Source: Saccharibacter sp. EH611 (GTDB lineage Bacteria; Pseudomonadota; Alphaproteobacteria; Acetobacterales; Acetobacteraceae). Taken from it: a stretch of 64,000 nucleotides of DNA. The DNA lies in the NCBI RefSeq assembly GCF_009834765.1, contig NZ_WVHP01000021.1, positions 62,001 through 126,000 on the forward strand. The letters run 5' to 3'. Each line of letters starts with the position of its first letter. Positions within the stretch are counted from its first letter, which is position 1. This document shows positions 1-9,198 of the stretch, in pieces. Both the position numbers and the translations under genes were made by a program. The notes below the pieces were generated by a model that saw nothing but the letters and a program-made list of their open reading frames with translations, searched no databases and was not told where the DNA came from.

Positions 1-2
1 AG

Positions 3-1859
3 TCCATTATTGAGATGGGCAATGGGCCGGAGGAACCAGCTTCGTCGGAAACTTCTCCTGTGCCGGAGAACTTCGAGCCCGTTGCGTTTGATTTTGGCGG
101 ATTTGATTTCGACGAGCCAGAGGAGAATGCTGAGGGTGGTGATTTCTCCGTTCAGTTTACACCGCATAGTGACCTCTATGTGCGTGGGGATGATGCGCGG
201 AATCTGTTGCTTGGGCTAAAAGAGCTCGTTCCAGAGGAGCATCAGGATGGCTTCCATGTCGTGTGCGATCAGGAAAAGTTACCAGCATCATTGAACGAGC
301 TTCCCGCTGAAGAAGCGCTCTTGTCGTGGACAGTCACGGTTCCGCAGGCCGATGGGCAGGTGACTGAAGAGCAGATTCGTGAAGTTTTCGATTGGGTTGA
401 TGATGTGTGCGACCTAACGATTACGACGACAGGGGGGAATGGCCCCGATGGAGGGGGAGATGGCTCTCTTCCACCGTTGGAGGAAGAGCCTGCGTCTGAG
501 GAAGAGCCGCCGCCGGCCCAACCTCAGAAGGAGACGGTTGCTCCAACGCCTGCGCCAAAGGTGGCGCCTAAGGAAGAGAAAAAAACCGCAAAGCATGTAA
601 AAAAGGCTGAACAAAGCCCCTCTATCCGTGTCGATCTTAATCGAATTTCGATGCTGATGGATATGGTGGGTGAGATGGTTATCGGCCAAGCATCCTTGGA
701 GTCCGTTTTGGAAAAAAGCGGTGCGTTAGACAATCAGGAGCTTTTAAAAAGCCTCTCCGTGATGCGTTCACTGACGCGCGATATTCAGGATGCTGTGATG
801 GCCGTGCGGGCGCAGCCTGTTCGTAGTGTGTTTCAACGCATGCACAGGGTTGTGCGTGAGGCTAGCAACTTGGCGAAAAAAGATATTGCGCTGGTCTTGG
901 AAGGAGAAGAGACGGAGATCGATCGTACCTTGATCGAGAATTTGACCGATCCTCTTACCCATATGCTGCGCAATGCAGTGGATCATGGCGTTGAAAGCCC
1001 TGAAAAACGGCGTGAAGCGGGGAAATCTGAGCAAGGCACGATATGGCTATCCGCGTATCATCGTTCTGGGCGTATTCTCATTGATATTAAAGATGATGGC
1101 GGTGGGATTAATCGGGAGCGGGTTTTTCAGATTGCGGTGCAAAAAGGCATCGTGGCTCCTGACGCTCAATTGACTGAAGATGAAGTAAATGAGCTGATTT
1201 TTGCACCGGGCTTTTCGACGGCGGAGAAAGTGTCAGACCTTTCAGGTCGTGGTGTTGGCATGGATGTGGTGAAACAGGCTATTCAAAATCTTGGAGGGCA
1301 CGTTTCCATTAAAAGTACGCCAGGGGAAGGAACACTCTTTAGCCTGAGCTTGCCGCTGACGTTGGCTGTGCTGGATGGGATGCTGATTGAATGTCGCGGT
1401 TCAACCATGGTGGTGCCGGTGACGTCCGTTGTGGAGCTGATGACCGTGAAGGTGCCGCAGGAGATTCATGTTATTCCAGATGGCACCCGTGTGATCTTGG
1501 TGAGGGGGCGTTGTATTCCCCTGATCTATCTTGCTGATGCGCTGACGCTACCGTGGATTGAGCAAAAAGAGAAATCAGCAGCCAAACGTACCGAGCAAGA
1601 GGATCAGCTCATTGTTTTGATCGTAGAAAACGAAGCGGGGGCACGTGCTGCTTTGGTTGTGGATGGTATCCGTGACCAAGCACAGGTAGTGATTAAAAGT
1701 ATTGAGAAGAATTATCGTCGGATTGAAGGGATTTCGGCAGCAACCATTTTGGGTGATGGAAGTGTTTCGCTGATTTTAGACATATCGACGTTGATTGCCG
1801 CAACGACAAAGCGTGTTGACACACGAGCGATGGAGCAGCTTGTCAGAAATGCTGCATAA
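3..1859 (+). CDS. cheA: Chemotaxis histidine kinase CheA (5'-truncated by window edge)
   Basis: Cytoplasmic histidine kinase that passes phosphate from chemoreceptors to CheY and CheB. The frame is open to the window's left edge, so the first in-frame ATG (15) is probably internal. The N-terminal Hpt domain with the phosphorylated His is not in the window. Counting from that ATG, one sees an acidic Pro-rich linker (about 130-200), the P3 dimerisation helices (about 203-260), an ATPase N-box with RNAVDHG (about 310), G1 DDGGG (about 362), G2 GRGVGMD (about 408) and a C-terminal CheW-like domain (about 450-600). It is the first visible gene of the che operon, and cheW follows closely. Identity is secure; only the start is missing. 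Confidence 0.96.
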   Translation, partial: SIIEMGNGPEEPASSETSPVPENFEPVAFDFGGFDFDEPEENAEGGDFSVQFTPHSDLYVRGDDARNLLLGLKELVPEEHQDGFHVVCDQEKLPASLNELPAEEALLSWTVTVPQADGQVTEEQIREVFDWVDDVCDLTITTTGGNGPDGGGDGSLPPLEEEPASEEEPPPAQPQKETVAPTPAPKVAPKEEKKTAKHVKKAEQSPSIRVDLNRISMLMDMVGEMVIGQASLESVLEKSGALDNQELLKSLSVMRSLTRDIQDAVMAVRAQPVRSVFQRMHRVVREASNLAKKDIALVLEGEETEIDRTLIENLTDPLTHMLRNAVDHGVESPEKRREAGKSEQGTIWLSAYHRSGRILIDIKDDGGGINRERVFQIAVQKGIVAPDAQLTEDEVNELIFAPGFSTAEKVSDLSGRGVGMDVVKQAIQNLGGHVSIKSTPGEGTLFSLSLPLTLAVLDGMLIECRGSTMVVPVTSVVELMTVKVPQEIHVIPDGTRVILVRGRCIPLIYLADALTLPWIEQKEKSAAKRTEQEDQLIVLIVENEAGARAALVVDGIRDQAQVVIKSIEKNYRRIEGISAATILGDGSVSLILDISTLIAATTKRVDTRAMEQLVRNAA

Positions 1860-1892
1860 TAGTGCGTGAAGGCAATAAGGAAGGATAAATTC

Positions 1893-2405
1893 GTGGACGA
1901 AAAGCAGCCAGTTCAGCCCGACACAGATGGCACTGCAGGTCATAAAGAACAGATGATTATCTTTGTGATAGGTGATCAGGAATATTGCATTCCTATTTTG
2001 AGCATTAAAGAGATCAGAGAATATGAAAAGCCTACATATTTGCCACATTGCTTGCCTTATGTAGAGGGAGCTATCAATATCCGTGGGAATATTGTGACTG
2101 TGGTGAATTTGGCAAAATATCTTGATGTGCCTGCCCAAACGGATAATGAACGCCGGGTCGTGATTGTTATTGAGTCGGACGAACAGACAACATGCGGCCT
2201 CCTCGTCGATGGTGTCGTGGGCATTACTGACATTCTTTTGAGTGATGTTCAGCCGATTTCCGTAGAAGGTGGCGCGGCGGAACTGAGCGGTTTGGTAACT
2301 GTTGGGGAGCGTGTCATCCGCATTTTGCAGCTTGATTCGGTCATTTCTCAGCTTTTAGGGCAGGAAGCAGCCGGGACGGCAACGACCCCGACAGCCCTGT
2401 CGTGA
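1893..2405 (+). CDS. cheW: Chemotaxis coupling protein CheW
   Basis: Adaptor that links chemoreceptors to CheA. A single CheW/SH3-like domain fills the protein: it opens with a strand reading IIFVIGDQEYCIPI and continues through ISIKEIREY-like and INIRGNIVTVVNL segments typical of the family. I chose GTG 1893 because AAGGAAGGA (1877-1885) sits 7 bases upstream; an upstream GTG at 1866 would add nine residues but has no comparable ribosome site. About 170 residues, normal for CheW. It lies between cheA and cheR in the same operon. Confidence 0.93.
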   Translation: MDEKQPVQPDTDGTAGHKEQMIIFVIGDQEYCIPILSIKEIREYEKPTYLPHCLPYVEGAINIRGNIVTVVNLAKYLDVPAQTDNERRVVIVIESDEQTTCGLLVDGVVGITDILLSDVQPISVEGGAAELSGLVTVGERVIRILQLDSVISQLLGQEAAGTATTPTALS

Positions 2406-2415
2406 GGGAAGTCTG

Positions 2416-3258
2416 ATGTCGTTTCCAGATGCAGCGGGTGATTTTTCTTATTCGGAGCATGACTTCCAGCGTGTGCAAACTATTGCTTTGCGAGAAGCAG
2501 GTATTAGCTTGCCTGTTTCTAAGCGGAGCCTTGTGTTCTCTCGCGTGTCACGTCGTATTCGGGCAACAGGGAAGGAGTCTTTTGGCACCTATCTTGATTA
2601 TGTAAGCTCGCCTGATGGTATGGAAGAAATGCAGGAGCTTATCTGCGTTCTAACAACGAATGTGACGCAGTTCTTTCGTGAGAAAAGCCATTTTGAACAT
2701 CTGGAAGACCATGTTGCTCCGCACATGAGTCGAACGCTTCGTTCTGGAGGGCGTTGTCGTATGTGGTCGGCAGCATGCTCTACGGGGCAAGAGGCGTGGA
2801 GCATGGCGATGTCGGTTGTTGATAAAATATCCGATGCCCCGTGGTTGGATATGAAGATCCTCGCCACAGATATTAACCATTCGGTGGTTAACTTTGGCCA
2901 AGCAGGTCAGTATCTTGCTGAAGAAGTGCAGACAGTGCCAGATCATATGCGGCGTAAATTTATGGAGCCGAATGGTGTTGGTGGTTTCCGCATGACGGGA
3001 GAAATTAGGCGTTTGCCGGTTTTTAAGCCGTTAAACCTAAATCGTGTATGGCCTTTTCATGGATCATTTGACGTGATTTTCTGTCGGAATGTTGTCATTT
3101 ATTTTGACGATGAAACACGCAATGCGCTGTGGAAAAGGCTTGCAGGCCGGCTCGTCCCAGGTGGCTTTCTGTATGTTGGTCATTCTGAACGTGTTGAGAA
3201 CATGCGCGACTGTGGTCTTGAGGCGGTCGCTCCCACGATTTACATCAAAAGGGCTTAA
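2416..3258 (+). CDS. cheR: Chemoreceptor glutamate methyltransferase CheR
   Basis: SAM-dependent methylation of chemoreceptor glutamates, the adaptation arm opposed by CheB. The 280-residue protein has the helical N-terminal domain (about 10-75) and a Rossmann methyltransferase domain. Visible signatures are TTNVTQFFRE, the SAM loop region WSAACSTGQEAWS, ILATDINHSVV and FDVIFCRNVVIYFD. The ATG at 2416 follows a GAGGGAAG ribosome site just after the cheW stop. The stop abuts cheB, suggesting translational coupling. Confidence 0.96.
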   Translation: MSFPDAAGDFSYSEHDFQRVQTIALREAGISLPVSKRSLVFSRVSRRIRATGKESFGTYLDYVSSPDGMEEMQELICVLTTNVTQFFREKSHFEHLEDHVAPHMSRTLRSGGRCRMWSAACSTGQEAWSMAMSVVDKISDAPWLDMKILATDINHSVVNFGQAGQYLAEEVQTVPDHMRRKFMEPNGVGGFRMTGEIRRLPVFKPLNLNRVWPFHGSFDVIFCRNVVIYFDDETRNALWKRLAGRLVPGGFLYVGHSERVENMRDCGLEAVAPTIYIKRA

Positions 3259-3261
3259 GTG

Positions 3262-4308
3262 ATGCAGAAGCGTGTTAGGGTACTCATTGTTGATGATTCA
3301 AAAACAGCGCGAGAACTCATCAAGCGCTCCTTGCTGAAATATCCCGATCTTGAAGTGATTGGTGAGGCTGCTAATCCTATTGAGGCGCGTGATATCATTG
3401 TGCAAGATCAGCCCGATGTCATTACCTTGGATGTGGAAATGCCGGGTATGAACGGGTTGCAGTTTCTTGAAAAGATTATGCGCCTGCGTCCTATTCCCGT
3501 CGTGATGGTTTCTAGTCTGACAGCTCAGGGGGCTAATGTGGCGATTAAGGCGCTGCAAATGGGTGCCTTTGAGTGTTTTCCGAAAAAAACGTCTGGCGGT
3601 GCGGGGGAGGCGTTTGCTGGATTAGGACGTATTTTGCTGGAGGCGGCTTCTTCTCATCCGGGGCATCGCGGTGGGGGTATAAAAACACGCAAACCTGCCG
3701 ATGATAGGCCTCATGCTCATGTCACGGGTGTTTGGAAAACGCTCTTTGATGTCATAGCCATTGGCTCTTCTACCGGTGGCGTGGAGGCCGTGGAGGAAGT
3801 GCTCAAAGGCTTCCCTGCAGGGAGCCCCCCTGTCGTTATTTGCCAGCATATGCCACCCCTTTTTACGGCGAGTTTTGCGTCACGGCTGGATAGTCTCATC
3901 CCTCATTTATCCATAGCAGAAGCGCATGATCGGGAAGTATTGGCGCCGGGGATGGTGCGGATTGCGCCAGGCGGTGAGCGCCATGTGACGGTAGAAGGTG
4001 GGCCGCAGTTTGTGATGACGCGTCTTGTGGCCGCTCCTCCTGTGGGAGGACACTGTCCTTCTGTTGATGTGTTGTTCTCTTCAGTAGCCCGTCATGTGGG
4101 AAGAAATGCCTTGGGGATTATCCTGACAGGGATGGGCCGAGATGGTGCCCAGGGGCTTTTGGAGATGAGGGAGCATGGAGCACAGACTATTGCACAAGAC
4201 CGTGCATCTTCTGTGGTTTATGGTATGCCGCGTGTCGCAACAGAAATTGGAGCGGCGGGGCGTACTGCTCCATTAAAAGAGATCGCGAGGGTGGCTATGC
4301 ATCTTTAA
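3262..4308 (+). CDS. cheB: Chemoreceptor methylesterase/deamidase CheB
   Basis: Response-regulator methylesterase that removes receptor methyl groups. It has an N-terminal receiver domain with phospho-acceptor D57 in DVEMPGMNG, a short linker, and a C-terminal esterase domain. The probable triad is S170 (in SSTGG), H196 (CQHMP) and D294 (GMGRDGA). ATG 3262 is preferred; GTG 3259, directly after the cheR stop, is the alternative. About 348 residues, full length. A gap of about 100 bp separates it from cheY, so a second promoter there is possible but I cannot define one. Confidence 0.96.
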   Translation: MQKRVRVLIVDDSKTARELIKRSLLKYPDLEVIGEAANPIEARDIIVQDQPDVITLDVEMPGMNGLQFLEKIMRLRPIPVVMVSSLTAQGANVAIKALQMGAFECFPKKTSGGAGEAFAGLGRILLEAASSHPGHRGGGIKTRKPADDRPHAHVTGVWKTLFDVIAIGSSTGGVEAVEEVLKGFPAGSPPVVICQHMPPLFTASFASRLDSLIPHLSIAEAHDREVLAPGMVRIAPGGERHVTVEGGPQFVMTRLVAAPPVGGHCPSVDVLFSSVARHVGRNALGIILTGMGRDGAQGLLEMREHGAQTIAQDRASSVVYGMPRVATEIGAAGRTAPLKEIARVAMHL

Positions 4309-4414: not shown

Positions 4415-4804
4415 ATGCCATCCGCTTCACAAATTCGCGCTCTTATTGTGGATGACCAACAATCTATTCGCCAAGTTCTTGCAAGCCATATGGCCTCGCT
4501 TGGTTTCCAAGGTGTTGCGCAGCGTAAAGATGGGAAAGAAGCCCTAGAGTATTTAGAGGCCAATCCAACGCATCTCATTATTTCTGATTTCAACATGCCG
4601 GAGATGGACGGGCTGGCACTTCTGAAGGCTGTGCGTGCGAACCCTAAAACGAAAAAATCGGCTTTCATTATCCTAACAGGCGAGGCTAATGCCGGGTTGG
4701 TGCAGGAAGCTGTGGCCGCAGGGGTGAATAATTTCCTTGCGAAGCCCTATACGGTTGCCAAACTTAAGGAAGCTCTAGAGAAGGTGTTTGGGCCTATTCG
4801 GTGA
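4415..4804 (+). CDS. cheY: CheY-type single-domain response regulator
   Basis: A 129-residue stand-alone receiver domain that carries the chemotaxis signal to the flagellar motor or serves as a phosphate sink. The acidic pocket is VDDQQ near the N-terminus, phospho-acceptor D58 lies in SDFNMPEMDG, the conserved Thr in ILTGEA and the Lys in LAKPY. A clear AGAAAGGTGA ribosome site precedes ATG 4415. Its stop overlaps the cheD GTG by four bases (GTGA). Its position after cheB matches the second CheY of alphaproteobacterial che operons, the motor-binding one, but that role is inferred. Confidence 0.93.
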   Translation: MPSASQIRALIVDDQQSIRQVLASHMASLGFQGVAQRKDGKEALEYLEANPTHLIISDFNMPEMDGLALLKAVRANPKTKKSAFIILTGEANAGLVQEAVAAGVNNFLAKPYTVAKLKEALEKVFGPIR

Positions 4805-5295
4805 TTGCTGGGCTTAATATCGTCACGATTGTCCAAGGGGATGTCGTTGTTTCAGATGATCCAGCGGTCGTCTTTGGCACACTTCTTGGCTCCTGTGTTT
4901 CGGTGTGTTTGTACGATACCTATGCGGCTGTCGGGGGGATGAACCATTTCCTCATCCCGGGCGGAGCATATGGTCATAGTCACAACGAGTCTGCATATCT
5001 TTATGGGGCAAACGCGATGGATTGCCTTATTGAGAAAGTGCTGCAGGCAGGAGGACGACGCGGTAATTTAGTGTGTAAAGCGTTTGGTGGGGCGGCTCTT
5101 CATTCTAAATTCGGTGATATTGGGCAAGAGAATGTACGCTTTCTTTTGAGTTATCTTCAGAAGAAGAATATTGAGTGCGTCTCCTACAGTTTTGGCGGAC
5201 AACATGCGCGTCGTATTCGCTTTTGGCCGACAACAGGGAAAGTGTTGCAAGCCACAGCACCCGTTCGGAAATTGCCGCAAGGGTTGGAATATTGA
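4801..5295 (+). CDS. cheD: Chemoreceptor glutamine deamidase CheD
   Basis: Deamidates specific receptor glutamines and in some bacteria binds CheC or CheY. Catalytic Cys32 lies in LGSCVSVC and the His49 in GGMNHFL; the third conserved element KAFGGAAL is also present. The length of 164 residues is normal. GTG 4801 overlaps the cheY stop, consistent with coupled translation. No CheC gene is visible in the window. Confidence 0.95.
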   Translation: MIAGLNIVTIVQGDVVVSDDPAVVFGTLLGSCVSVCLYDTYAAVGGMNHFLIPGGAYGHSHNESAYLYGANAMDCLIEKVLQAGGRRGNLVCKAFGGAALHSKFGDIGQENVRFLLSYLQKKNIECVSYSFGGQHARRIRFWPTTGKVLQATAPVRKLPQGLEY

Positions 5296-5307: not shown

Positions 5308-5664
5308 ATGCCAAAGACCACAGTGCATAGTTCGACATTGCTCGCACGTTTGGCTGATATTGCGCATGATGCGCGTATTCACCTTCAGGAAAGCCAGCGC
5401 GTTGTCTCGGAGACGGTTCAGACAGGGACTGTCACGGGTAAGCAGTTAGAACAGCTTCAAACTTTGGATGCGGCCACGCAAGAGGTTGAAGCGGTTGAAA
5501 CGGTTCTAGAGGCTGTTTCTGCACAGCTTGCAGAGGGGAATGATCCAGTCTGGTTACTGAAAGGCCTCATTAAGGATGTCAGGTTGAGTCATGTTGTGGA
5601 TCATCTCAAGGGAGTGATGGCAACAGACCCAGCTGATAAAGGGGATGAGGTAACGTTCTTCTAA
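5308..5664 (+). CDS. cheT: CheT-like small chemotaxis protein with CheZ-style DxxxQ motif
   Basis: A 118-residue, mostly helical soluble protein encoded last in the che operon, 12 bases after cheD. The sequence shows D54-A-A-T-Q58 inside a long predicted helix, matching the DxxxQ signature by which CheZ and CheX dephosphorylate CheY-P. The C-terminus ends DEVTFF, an acidic-then-aromatic tail reminiscent of the CheZ peptide that docks on CheY. Established knowledge: Sinorhizobium meliloti has a similarly sized CheT at the same operon position with a DxxxQ motif. Assigning CheT rests on position, size and motif; I cannot align the rest, so a phosphatase role is inference. Confidence 0.62.
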   Translation: MPKTTVHSSTLLARLADIAHDARIHLQESQRVVSETVQTGTVTGKQLEQLQTLDAATQEVEAVETVLEAVSAQLAEGNDPVWLLKGLIKDVRLSHVVDHLKGVMATDPADKGDEVTFF

Positions 5665-5709
5665 CCATGAGAGAGAAGCCTTTTGCGTTATAAAAGGGTA
5701 GAGGCAAAC

Positions 5710-6969
5710 ATGATGAGACGTCTAAACGTGGGACGCGTGTTTTTACTATGTTTAGCGGTCAGCATGGTCTCTCAGGCCCATGCGCAAGACCGGCGGCAGG
5801 TTGGGGAGCCTCATTATCCTCAGCATATTTGTGCGACGGTCACGCCGGCTGATCAGGCAAGGCTTCAATCTGTCATTGACCATTGTCCCGCTGGGCAGGC
5901 TGTCCATTTTGCAAAGGGGCGCTATGTAAGCGACCCGTTGACTGTTTCGACAGGGGTCTTTCTATGGTTGGATCGTGGGGCTATCCTTAATGCGACGACC
6001 AACCCACTGGCGTATGATCGTGGCACTGGAATGTGCGGCATGTTGGATCATGACGGCAAAAGCTGCCGGCCTTTTCTGACGTTTGACCACACAGATGGGG
6101 GCGGCCTTGTCGGGGAAGGTCGCATTGATGGTCAAGGCGGCCAGCTTATTGATGGGCAGCCTGTTTCGTGGTGGCAGATAGCGCGTCAGGCGCAGCAAGT
6201 TGGGTCAAAGCAGAATAACCCACGTCTTATTGTGCTTGATCATGCACGTAATGTCACATTCTACCATATTACGTTACAAAATGCGGCCAATTTCCATGTT
6301 ATGGCGGATCACGTGCGTGGAGCAACCTTTTGGGGGGTCGTGATTGATGCTCCAGCTGACGCACGGAATACAGATGGGATTGATCCTGCCTCAGCAGAGG
6401 ATGTGACGATTGCGCATAGCTTCATCCGCACAGGAGACGATAATGTGGCTATCAAAGCTGGGGCGAATGGTGGAGGCAGCCATTATATCTCTTTGACGGA
6501 TAACCATTTTTATTGGGGACATGGCCTGTCGATAGGCAGTGAAACAGCAGGCGGTGTGCAGCATATTTTAGTGAAGAATCTGGCATTAGACGGCACAACT
6601 TCGGGATTGCGGATAAAGAGTGATACAACCCGAGGAGGTGAGGTACAGAACGTGACGTACGAAAATATATGTCTTCGTTCTAATCGCTGGCCGATCTTTT
6701 TTGACACGCACTATGAGGGGCGTGATGGGGGAAATTTGATTCCCGTTTATCGGAATATCGCTTTAGATCATCTCAGAGGTTCTGGCGGAGAGGCCGTGTT
6801 TAATGGTTATGACGCAAAGCACATGATGAGCGTTTTTTTAAGAGATGCTGTCGTGACTGGCGTTTCTTTAAAGCAAAATTACGCAACGCTCACCCCGGTT
6901 GTTTCAGCGAGTGGGGAGCAGACAAAGATTTTTGATTGTACGGGGGCATGGCTCCCTTTCCCTCAATAA
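5710..6969 (+). CDS. Secreted glycoside hydrolase family 28 polygalacturonase
   Basis: Right-handed beta-helix pectinase, probably cleaving galacturonan outside the cytoplasm. A Sec signal peptide (about 1-25, cleavage after AHA) is followed by repeated short strands. Catalytic motifs are NTDGID (220-225, D222), GDDN (242-245), GHGLSIGSE and RIKSD, the full GH28 set. ATG 5710 is chosen over a TTG at 5683 because GAGG (5701-5704) lies just upstream and the signal peptide then starts correctly; ATG 5713 is equally possible. About 419 residues, normal. It follows the chemotaxis operon on the same strand but is not obviously part of it. Endo versus exo activity cannot be told. Confidence 0.92.
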   Translation: MMRRLNVGRVFLLCLAVSMVSQAHAQDRRQVGEPHYPQHICATVTPADQARLQSVIDHCPAGQAVHFAKGRYVSDPLTVSTGVFLWLDRGAILNATTNPLAYDRGTGMCGMLDHDGKSCRPFLTFDHTDGGGLVGEGRIDGQGGQLIDGQPVSWWQIARQAQQVGSKQNNPRLIVLDHARNVTFYHITLQNAANFHVMADHVRGATFWGVVIDAPADARNTDGIDPASAEDVTIAHSFIRTGDDNVAIKAGANGGGSHYISLTDNHFYWGHGLSIGSETAGGVQHILVKNLALDGTTSGLRIKSDTTRGGEVQNVTYENICLRSNRWPIFFDTHYEGRDGGNLIPVYRNIALDHLRGSGGEAVFNGYDAKHMMSVFLRDAVVTGVSLKQNYATLTPVVSASGEQTKIFDCTGAWLPFPQ

Positions 6970-7010
6970 TCATTTAAAATTGTCCTAATGGTGTGGGGGA
7001 GGGTTGCTGT

Positions 7011-7040
7011 ATTGTTTCGAATAAACAATAGTTGTTTTTT
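7011..7040 (+). terminator. AT-rich hairpin with T-tract, possible weak terminator
   Basis: ATTGTTT (7011-7017) and AAACAAT (7023-7029) form a perfect 7-bp stem with a 5-base loop, followed by GTTGTTTTTT. It lies between the GH28 and peptidase genes. The stem is AT-only except for one pair, so it could instead be an operator or chance structure. Confidence 0.35.
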
Positions 7041-7068
7041 CTCGATCCGCCGCTGTGAGGGTACCACC

Positions 7069-9198
7069 ATGCGTCTAAAACGATGGCTTCTTCTTGCTGG
7101 GGTTGCATCAATGGGAGCTCTTTCCTTTGGTGCAGCTCACGCTGCCTCTGCCAATCCCTTTTTCCAGCCTAGCCCCTATCCCTATCAGGCGCCTGCTTTT
7201 GATCGGATTAAGGAAAGCGATTATCAGCCGGCCTTTGAACGTGGAATGGCGGATCACCTTCATGAGGTCAATGCGATCGCGAGGAGCAAGGAGGCGCCGA
7301 GCTTTGAGAATACGATTGTTGCGCTTGAAAAGTCAGGGCGTTTGTTAGACCGCGTGACGGAAACATTCTTTGGGGTGTATCAGGCCAATAGTACTCCTGT
7401 GTTGGATCGTGTGCAGAGCCGGGAAGCACCACGTCTTGCCCAGCATCAAGATGAGATTAACCTTAATGCGCGTCTTTTTGCGCGGATTAAGGCACTGTAT
7501 GACCAACGAGCCACTCTTGGGCTGAATGCGGAGCAATCTCAGCTTTTAGAGGTTTATTACCAGCAATTCGTGCATGCGGGGGCTTTGCTGTCTCCTGCGA
7601 AGAAGACACGGTTACGGGCGATTAATAAACGTGAGGCCGAGCTTGAATCCGCCTATCAGCAGCGCCTCGTAGCGGCGGCGCGTGATGGTGCGCTTGTGGT
7701 GGATCAGAGAGAGGCACTTGCTGGGCTAGATGACGCAACGATAAAGAACGCTCAGAAGGCAGCTTCAGACCGCCATCATCCCGGGAAGTTTTTGCTGAGT
7801 TTGCAAAACACGGTGCAACAGCCCGAGCTTGAGGCTCTACAGTCCCGCACGACGCGGCAGGCTTTGTTTGAGGCGAGCTGGACGCGGGCTGAACGAGGGG
7901 ACGCTCATGATACACGGGCAATTATTGCGGAGCTAGCGCAGTTGAGAGCGGAGAAGGCGGCTTTATTTGGCTATCCGAACTATGCGGCCTACGTGCTGTA
8001 TGACCAAATGGCCAAAACACCCGAGGCGGCGACGGGGTTTATGCAGCAGCTTGTTTCGGCTTTAGCAAAAGCTCAAAAACGTGAAGCCTCGCTTTTACAG
8101 AAGGCGATGGAGCACGATAAGCAAACAGGCACGCTCCAGCCATGGGATTGGCCGTATTATGCTGCACAGGTTAAACGTGAGAAATTTGCGTTTAATCAAG
8201 ATGAGCTAAAGCCCTATTTTGAGCTTAATCATGTCCTCACTGATGGTGTTTTCTATGCAGCGGAACAGCTCTATGGGCTGCATTTTAAGCAACGCCATGA
8301 CATCCCAACCTATCATCCCGATGTGATGGTTTATGAGGTATTTGACCACGATAATAGCCCGCTGGGCTTGATGTATTTTGATTATTTTAAGCGTGACACG
8401 AAGTCAGGTGGTGCGTGGATGTCCAATTTCGTTGGGCAATCTCATCTGCTTGGCACGAAGCCCGTGATTTATAATGTGGCAAATTTTGCCAAAGCGTCTG
8501 CAGGTCAACCACAGCTGATTACCTCAGATGATGTGGTGACGATGTTCCATGAATTTGGGCATGCATTGCATGGGCTGTTTGCTAACCAGACTTATCCGAC
8601 GCTATCAGGCACCAATGTTGCGCGTGATTTTGTGGAATTCCCGTCCCAGTTTAATGAGAATTGGGCTTTTGAGCCAAAAGTGCTCGCTCATTATGCGCGG
8701 CATTATCAAACGGGCCAGCCGATCCCAGAGGCTTTAGTGGCAAAGATGAAGAAAGCGGCACATTTCGACCAGTCTTATGCGCTGGGCGAGATTGTCACCG
8801 CAGCAACGCTTGATCTGCGTTGGCATGGGCTGTCTGCCATTGCACCACGCCAGAAGGTGGACATGTTTGAAGCGCAGGAGCTTGGGTCGATGGGGTTGGA
8901 TGTAGCCCAGGTACCGCCACGGTACCGATCCAGCACGTTCCTTCATATTTGGTCTAATGGGTATGCGGCGGGCTATTATGCATATCTCTGGACAGAAATG
9001 CTTGATCAGGATGCTTTTGCGTGGTTCAGCGCACATGGTGGACTCACGCGGGCCAATGGGCAGCGTTTTCGTGACTTGATTCTCTCGCAAGGTCATACGC
9101 AGGATTACGGTACAATGTTCCGGGCCTTTTATGGTCAAAACCCTGATATTGAGCCCATGTTGCGCCATCGTGGGCTCATGGAAGGCATGACACCCTAA
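7069..9198 (+). CDS. dcp: Exported M3 family peptidyl-dipeptidase (Dcp-like)
   Basis: Zinc metallopeptidase that removes dipeptides from peptide C-termini. The zinc site HEFGH is at 494-498, with the third ligand E523 in FVEFPSQF; active-site helper motifs near the C-terminus (YRSSTFLHIWSNGYAAGYY) are present. Starting at ATG 7069 gives a 709-residue protein with a clear Sec signal peptide cleaved near AHA|AS, placing it in the periplasm. An upstream GTG (6988) would bury this signal and is rejected. The ribosome site is GTGAGGG at about 7055. Full family length; possibly used for peptide scavenging. Confidence 0.94.
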   Translation: MRLKRWLLLAGVASMGALSFGAAHAASANPFFQPSPYPYQAPAFDRIKESDYQPAFERGMADHLHEVNAIARSKEAPSFENTIVALEKSGRLLDRVTETFFGVYQANSTPVLDRVQSREAPRLAQHQDEINLNARLFARIKALYDQRATLGLNAEQSQLLEVYYQQFVHAGALLSPAKKTRLRAINKREAELESAYQQRLVAAARDGALVVDQREALAGLDDATIKNAQKAASDRHHPGKFLLSLQNTVQQPELEALQSRTTRQALFEASWTRAERGDAHDTRAIIAELAQLRAEKAALFGYPNYAAYVLYDQMAKTPEAATGFMQQLVSALAKAQKREASLLQKAMEHDKQTGTLQPWDWPYYAAQVKREKFAFNQDELKPYFELNHVLTDGVFYAAEQLYGLHFKQRHDIPTYHPDVMVYEVFDHDNSPLGLMYFDYFKRDTKSGGAWMSNFVGQSHLLGTKPVIYNVANFAKASAGQPQLITSDDVVTMFHEFGHALHGLFANQTYPTLSGTNVARDFVEFPSQFNENWAFEPKVLAHYARHYQTGQPIPEALVAKMKKAAHFDQSYALGEIVTAATLDLRWHGLSAIAPRQKVDMFEAQELGSMGLDVAQVPPRYRSSTFLHIWSNGYAAGYYAYLWTEMLDQDAFAWFSAHGGLTRANGQRFRDLILSQGHTQDYGTMFRAFYGQNPDIEPMLRHRGLMEGMTP

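Follow-up and report, generated by a model that had tools for sequence, protein, structure and literature searches.

The stretch of DNA analysed here (the window) comprises 64,000 nucleotides of the genome of Saccharibacter sp. EH611 (contig NZ_WVHP01000021.1), and its first part carries chemotaxis genes that all lie on the forward strand. These are the 3' part of cheA (1..1859; PF02518, PF02895 and PF01584), the start of which lies upstream of the window; cheW (1866..2405; PF01584); cheR (2416..3258; PF01739 and PF03705); cheB (3259..4308; PF01339 and PF00072); cheY2 (4415..4804; PF00072), whose best PDB match (E 3.4e-40) is the CheY2 entry 1p6q, from S. meliloti; cheD (4801..5295; PF03975, E 8.2e-21); and, after a gap of 12 bases, cheT (5308..5664), the subject of this report. 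In a stretch of the same genome that reaches upstream of the window (locus L101) the whole of cheA encodes 743 amino acids (6629-8860), and upstream of the window there are also genes for a receptor (508 aa, ending GWDNF), for CheS (95 aa, STAS_2) and for CheY1. The resulting order, MCP-CheS-CheY1-CheA-CheW-CheR-CheB-CheY2-CheD-CheT, is the set reported for Sinorhizobium, and in the S. medicae operon a receptor-like gene and the genes for CheS, CheY1, CheA, CheW, CheR, CheB, CheY2 and CheD follow one another in the same way. The chemosensory system of S. meliloti is assigned to class F7 in a review (PMC8429497).

The window's genome has a single MCP-domain match and ten receiver-domain matches (nine above the cut-off), two of them in frames short enough for a single-domain CheY, and PF04344 (CheZ) finds no match across it at E 0.001; with one receptor gene and no CheZ match, it therefore offers a very small system in which the role of CheT could be tested. 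The che operon of a more distant genome (G456) contains, between cheY2 and cheD, a gene for a 398-aa protein that looks pentapeptide-repeat-like by eye (L102 8261-9457). Matches to CheT and to CheW are both missing from a third genome of the window's own genus (G001), which suggests that chemotaxis has been lost there, within the genus.

The reading frame of cheT

The cheT frame runs from an ATG at 5308 to a stop ending at 5664 and encodes 118 amino acids, with D54-AAT-Q58 in its interior and KGDEVTFF at its C-terminus, and is thus present just as an earlier note on this DNA had described it. Its assignment rests on the open reading frame, on the profile match of its group to rhizobial CheT, and on a QxxDxxxQ signature that recurs in all 42 homologues found in the bacterial family to which the window's genome belongs (hereafter the family). 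A second genome of the genus holds a copy with 94% identity; between the two, the codon changes are 15 synonymous and 7 non-synonymous, and 19 of the 26 base changes fall at third positions, a synonymous excess and a positional bias that together mark cheT as protein-coding. In the copies searched, Pfam gives the protein no match near its cut-off and NCBIfam none, and a plasmid collection queried with the window's CheT and with the G456 homologue likewise returned no match. The silence of Pfam and NCBIfam is the one point in favour of a chance or non-functional frame closing the operon, a reading to which, given the third-position bias and three polar residues fixed in 42 family genomes, we allow practically no probability, and which conservation rules out.

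Eighteen bases past cheT a gene for a GH28 glycosidase begins on the same strand (5683-6969), and a gene for an M3 peptidase follows at 6988. The description of cheT as the last gene of the che operon holds in so far as it is the last che gene, but the gap that separates it from the glycosidase gene contains no terminator-like site.

CheT and CheZ among alphaproteobacteria

A review names CheT from rhizobia and Caulobacter (PMC12654446). Our rhizobial set was reached from the CheY2 sequence of 1p6q and consists of the best 80 loci listed, which include S. medicae, several loci titled only 'Rhizobiales bacterium' and none titled S. meliloti; the first long frame after cheD was taken in each, by position alone. 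All 80 frames from these best loci listed combine QxxDxxxQ with a tail of the form [DE][FLIMV][DE][FAL]F, and the motif counts obtained when frames were picked by position only (80/80 rhizobial, 42/42 family) are the same as those from motif-guided picks.

A relation over the full length emerges from the comparison of profiles. Between 42 non-redundant rhizobial CheT sequences and 11 of the 12 rows of the window's group, hhalign aligned 124 columns with a score of 45.1 (probability 93.3, E 2.6e-7), against 17.9 at most in 40 column shuffles and 19.3 for the reversed control, and the D, the Q and the terminal F of the two profiles fall opposite one another. The rhizobial HMM alone matched the window's CheT at E 0.025; the test set was small, and reversed sequences in it reached 0.0036 (one of them) and 0.063 and worse, while relatives were matched down to 7.2e-6 and the intermediate sequence from G650 at 8.8e-11. 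Profile, motif, tail and place, taken together, make the window protein, as judged from sequence, a CheT by descent and not a CheZ, which bears out the homology that the earlier note had proposed from the DxxxQ motif.

A search of 299 family genomes with the single window sequence gave matches in 18 (E 0.0044 or better), and in all 18 of the operons concerned tblastn finds receptor, CheS, CheY1, CheA, CheW, CheR, CheB, CheY2 and CheD in that order; CheT itself is seen by tblastn in 16 of them, the copies in G068 and G233 having been placed by the single-sequence search. Among the CheW-positive genomes, 51 had neither CheZ nor a single-sequence CheT match; scanned with a profile, they yielded nine further CheT genomes, and the remaining 42 gave 14 more with a wider profile (A3). 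Altogether the CheT genomes of the family span 15 genera, and the matched frame carries QxxDxxxQ in each of the 42. The weakest match accepted (G074, E 0.0058) was retained as it follows cheY2, and the copy in G011, which has a stop within the matched stretch and lacks the tail, entered the motif count unaltered. Left out of the counts were L254, which has no che genes nearby, and L257-L266 and L282-L289 (E 0.0017 or worse, mostly long frames); the weak A3 matches L256 and L280 have no CheT-like frame nearby. In the class as a whole, a scan at E 0.1 matched 16 of 385 genomes, of which the window's, G057, G456 and G650 were accepted, L078 and L079 were rejected on inspection, and the others were left out; QxxDxxxQ is found in five loci of the class outside the family (G057, G456, G650, G336 and G680).

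The view, stated in the earlier note, that alphaproteobacteria generally lack CheZ fails in this family, where PF04344 matches 166 of the 299 genomes at E 0.001 (163 above the curated cut-off). All 30 CheZ loci read carry DITGQ, and their C-termini resemble SDIDKLLASFD in 28 and read VDDLFN in two. PF04344 does not match the window's CheT protein at E 1, and the CheT and CheZ profiles of the family score 12.6 against each other, a value reached by 11 of 60 shuffles, so that CheT as a diverged CheZ was rejected at the sequence level. Only one genome was found with both (G008, locus L255); its CheT follows cheD in the che operon, and its CheZ match lies on another contig.

CheW is present in 233 family genomes, 69 of them without CheZ. 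CheT occurs in 41 of these 69 (none was found in the other 28), compared with one of the 118 CheZ-positive genomes scanned with A3; the CheZ-positive, CheW-positive genomes number 164, and the other 46 were searched with the single sequence only. Fisher's p for this exclusion is 1.6e-21, with genomes treated as independent though they are related. None of the first 18 CheT genomes, which were found regardless of CheZ, has CheZ, and a single genus (g18) holds both CheT genomes and CheZ genomes. The distribution shows that CheT and CheZ are near-alternative solutions within one family.

Invariant residues, predicted fold and C-terminal tail

In an alignment of 34 diverse sequences, whose identity to the window protein goes down to 12%, the only invariant columns are Q51, D54 and Q58, which make up the QxxDxxxQ signature (5458..5481, forward strand); D54 and Q58, on whose conservation the earlier note had staked its reading, are thus kept in every row, the aligned motifs being QKLDSATQ in G086 and QMLDLMSQ in G203. 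The DxxxQ motif quoted for CheT in the review PMC12654446 excludes Q51.

AlphaFold2 predicts helices at residues 8-39 and 44-74, arranged as a hairpin, and a flexible end (mean pLDDT 79.9, pTM 0.68; pLDDT below 50 at residues 105-117), so that the motif falls within a predicted helix and is presented by a helical hairpin, as the earlier note had expected; confidence in the hairpin models is middling. On an ideal-helix wheel the hydrophobic centre of helix 44-74 is 149 degrees away from Q51, 151 from D54 and 169 from Q58, which puts all three on the polar face of predicted helix 2, as would be expected of residues that bind or catalyse at a surface and not of core residues. The comparison of structures with CheT and CheZ that had been proposed yielded the hairpin, but all the structure matches are weak: Foldseek with the CheT model gave only weak, generic hairpin matches, none of them significant, and no CheZ among the 50 matches listed per search, and VIA-align gave weak generic hairpins and again no CheZ among the 50 matches listed. 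These weak Foldseek and VIA-align matches are no evidence for a fold unlike that of CheZ. In PDB sequence searches with profiles, the matches listed are mostly coiled-coil or other helical proteins, with no CheZ among them.

The C-terminal tail DEVTFF (5644..5661, forward strand), which lies in the part of the model with pLDDT under 50, is a conserved feature of CheT. A tail of the form [DENG][VIFLM][DETRN][LFAM]F ends 36 of the 42 family proteins; it stands two to five residues short of the end in those of G008, G187 and G229, one protein ends in VLDFF and one in AAEFF, and the G011 copy has none. Among the five class relatives outside the family, two end in EIW and that of G336 has no tail. 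Of 42 alphaproteobacterial CheD loci, six did not parse by the pattern and were left out of the count; 34 of the other 36 encode a CheD with a similar ending, of the kind of GDVELF or SIEFF, and 29 fit the strict pattern [VILM][DE]LF. The two CheD proteins without such a tail are that of L122 and the window's own, which ends QGLEY (5278-5292). In the window's genus and in genus g33 the CheD tail is absent from eight of eight genomes while the CheT tail is retained, and CheD of the best 80 rhizobial loci listed ends [IV]EFF. The earlier note had likened DEVTFF to the CheY-docking tail of CheZ; a conserved tail of the DEVTFF type does exist, but it has a motif of its own, mostly G[DE]-hydrophobic-x-x-F, distinct from the prevailing CheZ ending, and most CheD tails are similar to it. 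A FliM N-terminus with which the tail might be compared was sought by pattern in L152, where none was found.

Possible roles of CheT

We propose that CheT is a hairpin that, by means of Q51, D54 and Q58, acts as a phosphatase of the sink CheY1~P and docks CheR or a CheY through its tail, a reading that, taken whole, we consider reasonably probable. The predicted helical hairpin would dimerise, probably to a four-helix bundle, with Q51, D54 and Q58 exposed to solvent on its second helix; there, D54 and Q58 may act like their counterparts in CheZ. In CheZ, the glutamine orients a water molecule to attack the phospho-aspartate, and the aspartate contacts the active site of the receiver. The putative substrate would be CheY1~P, a phosphate sink whose gene lies farther upstream in the che operon; CheS would direct phosphate to CheY1, and CheT might reset this sink. 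Docking of the partner would fall to the C-terminal tail, which a flexible linker carries.

The sink CheY1~P is more probably the target than the motor CheY, because the operon encodes CheY1 and CheS and because the protein is homologous to that of S. meliloti, which reportedly acts on CheY1; the 18 operons read all have CheY1 and CheS, which fits this role. To our knowledge, no activity has been described for any CheT in the window's family. The gain in CheY1~P dephosphorylation in S. meliloti is said to be about two-fold, and phosphatase mutants there reportedly differ from the deletion, so that the main role of the protein may lie elsewhere. According to a review, CheT of S. meliloti dephosphorylates one of two CheYs and forms a complex with CheR (PMC12654446).

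CheT could, on this last point, be mainly an adaptor, whose tail mimics the C-terminal pentapeptide of receptors, occupies CheR and makes methylation depend on the state of CheY1, with dephosphorylation as a secondary function; we regard this as rather unlikely, and the odds that we give to it and to the CheY2~P alternative overlap with each other and with those of the CheY1~P phosphatase. The receptor pentapeptide is xZxxZ, with an aromatic residue (F, W or Y) at each Z and acidic ones at the other positions (PMC7390727). It is fitted by 76 of the 80 CheT tails from the best rhizobial loci listed, and the operon receptors of 18 family genomes end GW[DE]xF; yet only 2 of the 20 window-family CheT rows in A3 fit it, most having V, I, L or M for the aromatic (DEVTFF of the window included), and most CheD proteins bear a similar tail. 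We know of no CheD-CheR complex. The strict invariance of D54 and Q58, moreover, argues for catalysis.

We give a similarly small share of the probability to the motor regulator CheY2~P as substrate, in which case CheT would fully replace CheZ, its tail docking CheY as that of CheZ does. Such a replacement would agree with the rarity of genomes that hold both CheT and CheZ in the family, and a CheT tail such as GEIDLF is loosely like the CheZ tail core SDIDKLL. Three observations speak against it: according to the review PMC12654446 the S. meliloti protein acts on one CheY only, CheS and CheY1 are retained in the 18 operons read, and CheT and CheZ are without sequence relation.

The conserved C-terminal tail, with its likeness to that of CheD, is the best lead. 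The form G[DE]-hydrophobic-[DE]-[LFA]-F, common to CheT and CheD in much of the alphaproteobacteria, might imitate the receptor pentapeptide and serve as a common docking tag, in which case receptor, deamidase CheD and phosphatase CheT would compete for a single adaptation enzyme, CheR or CheB; we think this conjecture more apt to fail than to hold by a good way. If true, a shared docking tag would couple signal termination to adaptation.

Comparison with known systems

The range of CheT, so far rhizobia and Caulobacter, is widened here by 15 genera that belong to another family of alphaproteobacteria, and a signature, QxxDxxxQ with the tail, can now be given for a protein that the copies of Pfam and NCBIfam searched do not recognise. 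No literature on CheT in this family was found in titles or abstract openings, a search that most subscription journals lie outside.

The DHp hairpins of histidine kinases (SrrB, HK853) and a ChpT-like phosphotransferase recur among the weak Foldseek matches and share the helical hairpin with CheT, but no listed match falls below E 0.8 and the likeness may be that of any hairpin. CheZ (PF04344) resembles CheT in a helical DxxxQ (the helix of CheT being predicted), in a linker and in a short C-terminal peptide, in CheT a putative docking one, and probably in its chemistry; CheT differs in having neither a PF04344 match nor a profile relation, in being about half as long, and in carrying QxxDxxxQ where CheZ has FQDITGQ. 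Closest is the CheT of S. meliloti and its relatives, read here in S. medicae (L152 8987-9364), which likewise follows cheD in an operon with CheS and two CheYs and agrees with the window protein in DxxxQ, in length, in a G[DE]-hydrophobic-x-x-F tail and in profile-level homology. The identity of the window protein to the S. medicae sequence is only 14%, it has T and not V before the glutamine, and position -3 of its tail is aliphatic and not Phe; it is a genuine but ordinary member of the already known CheT.
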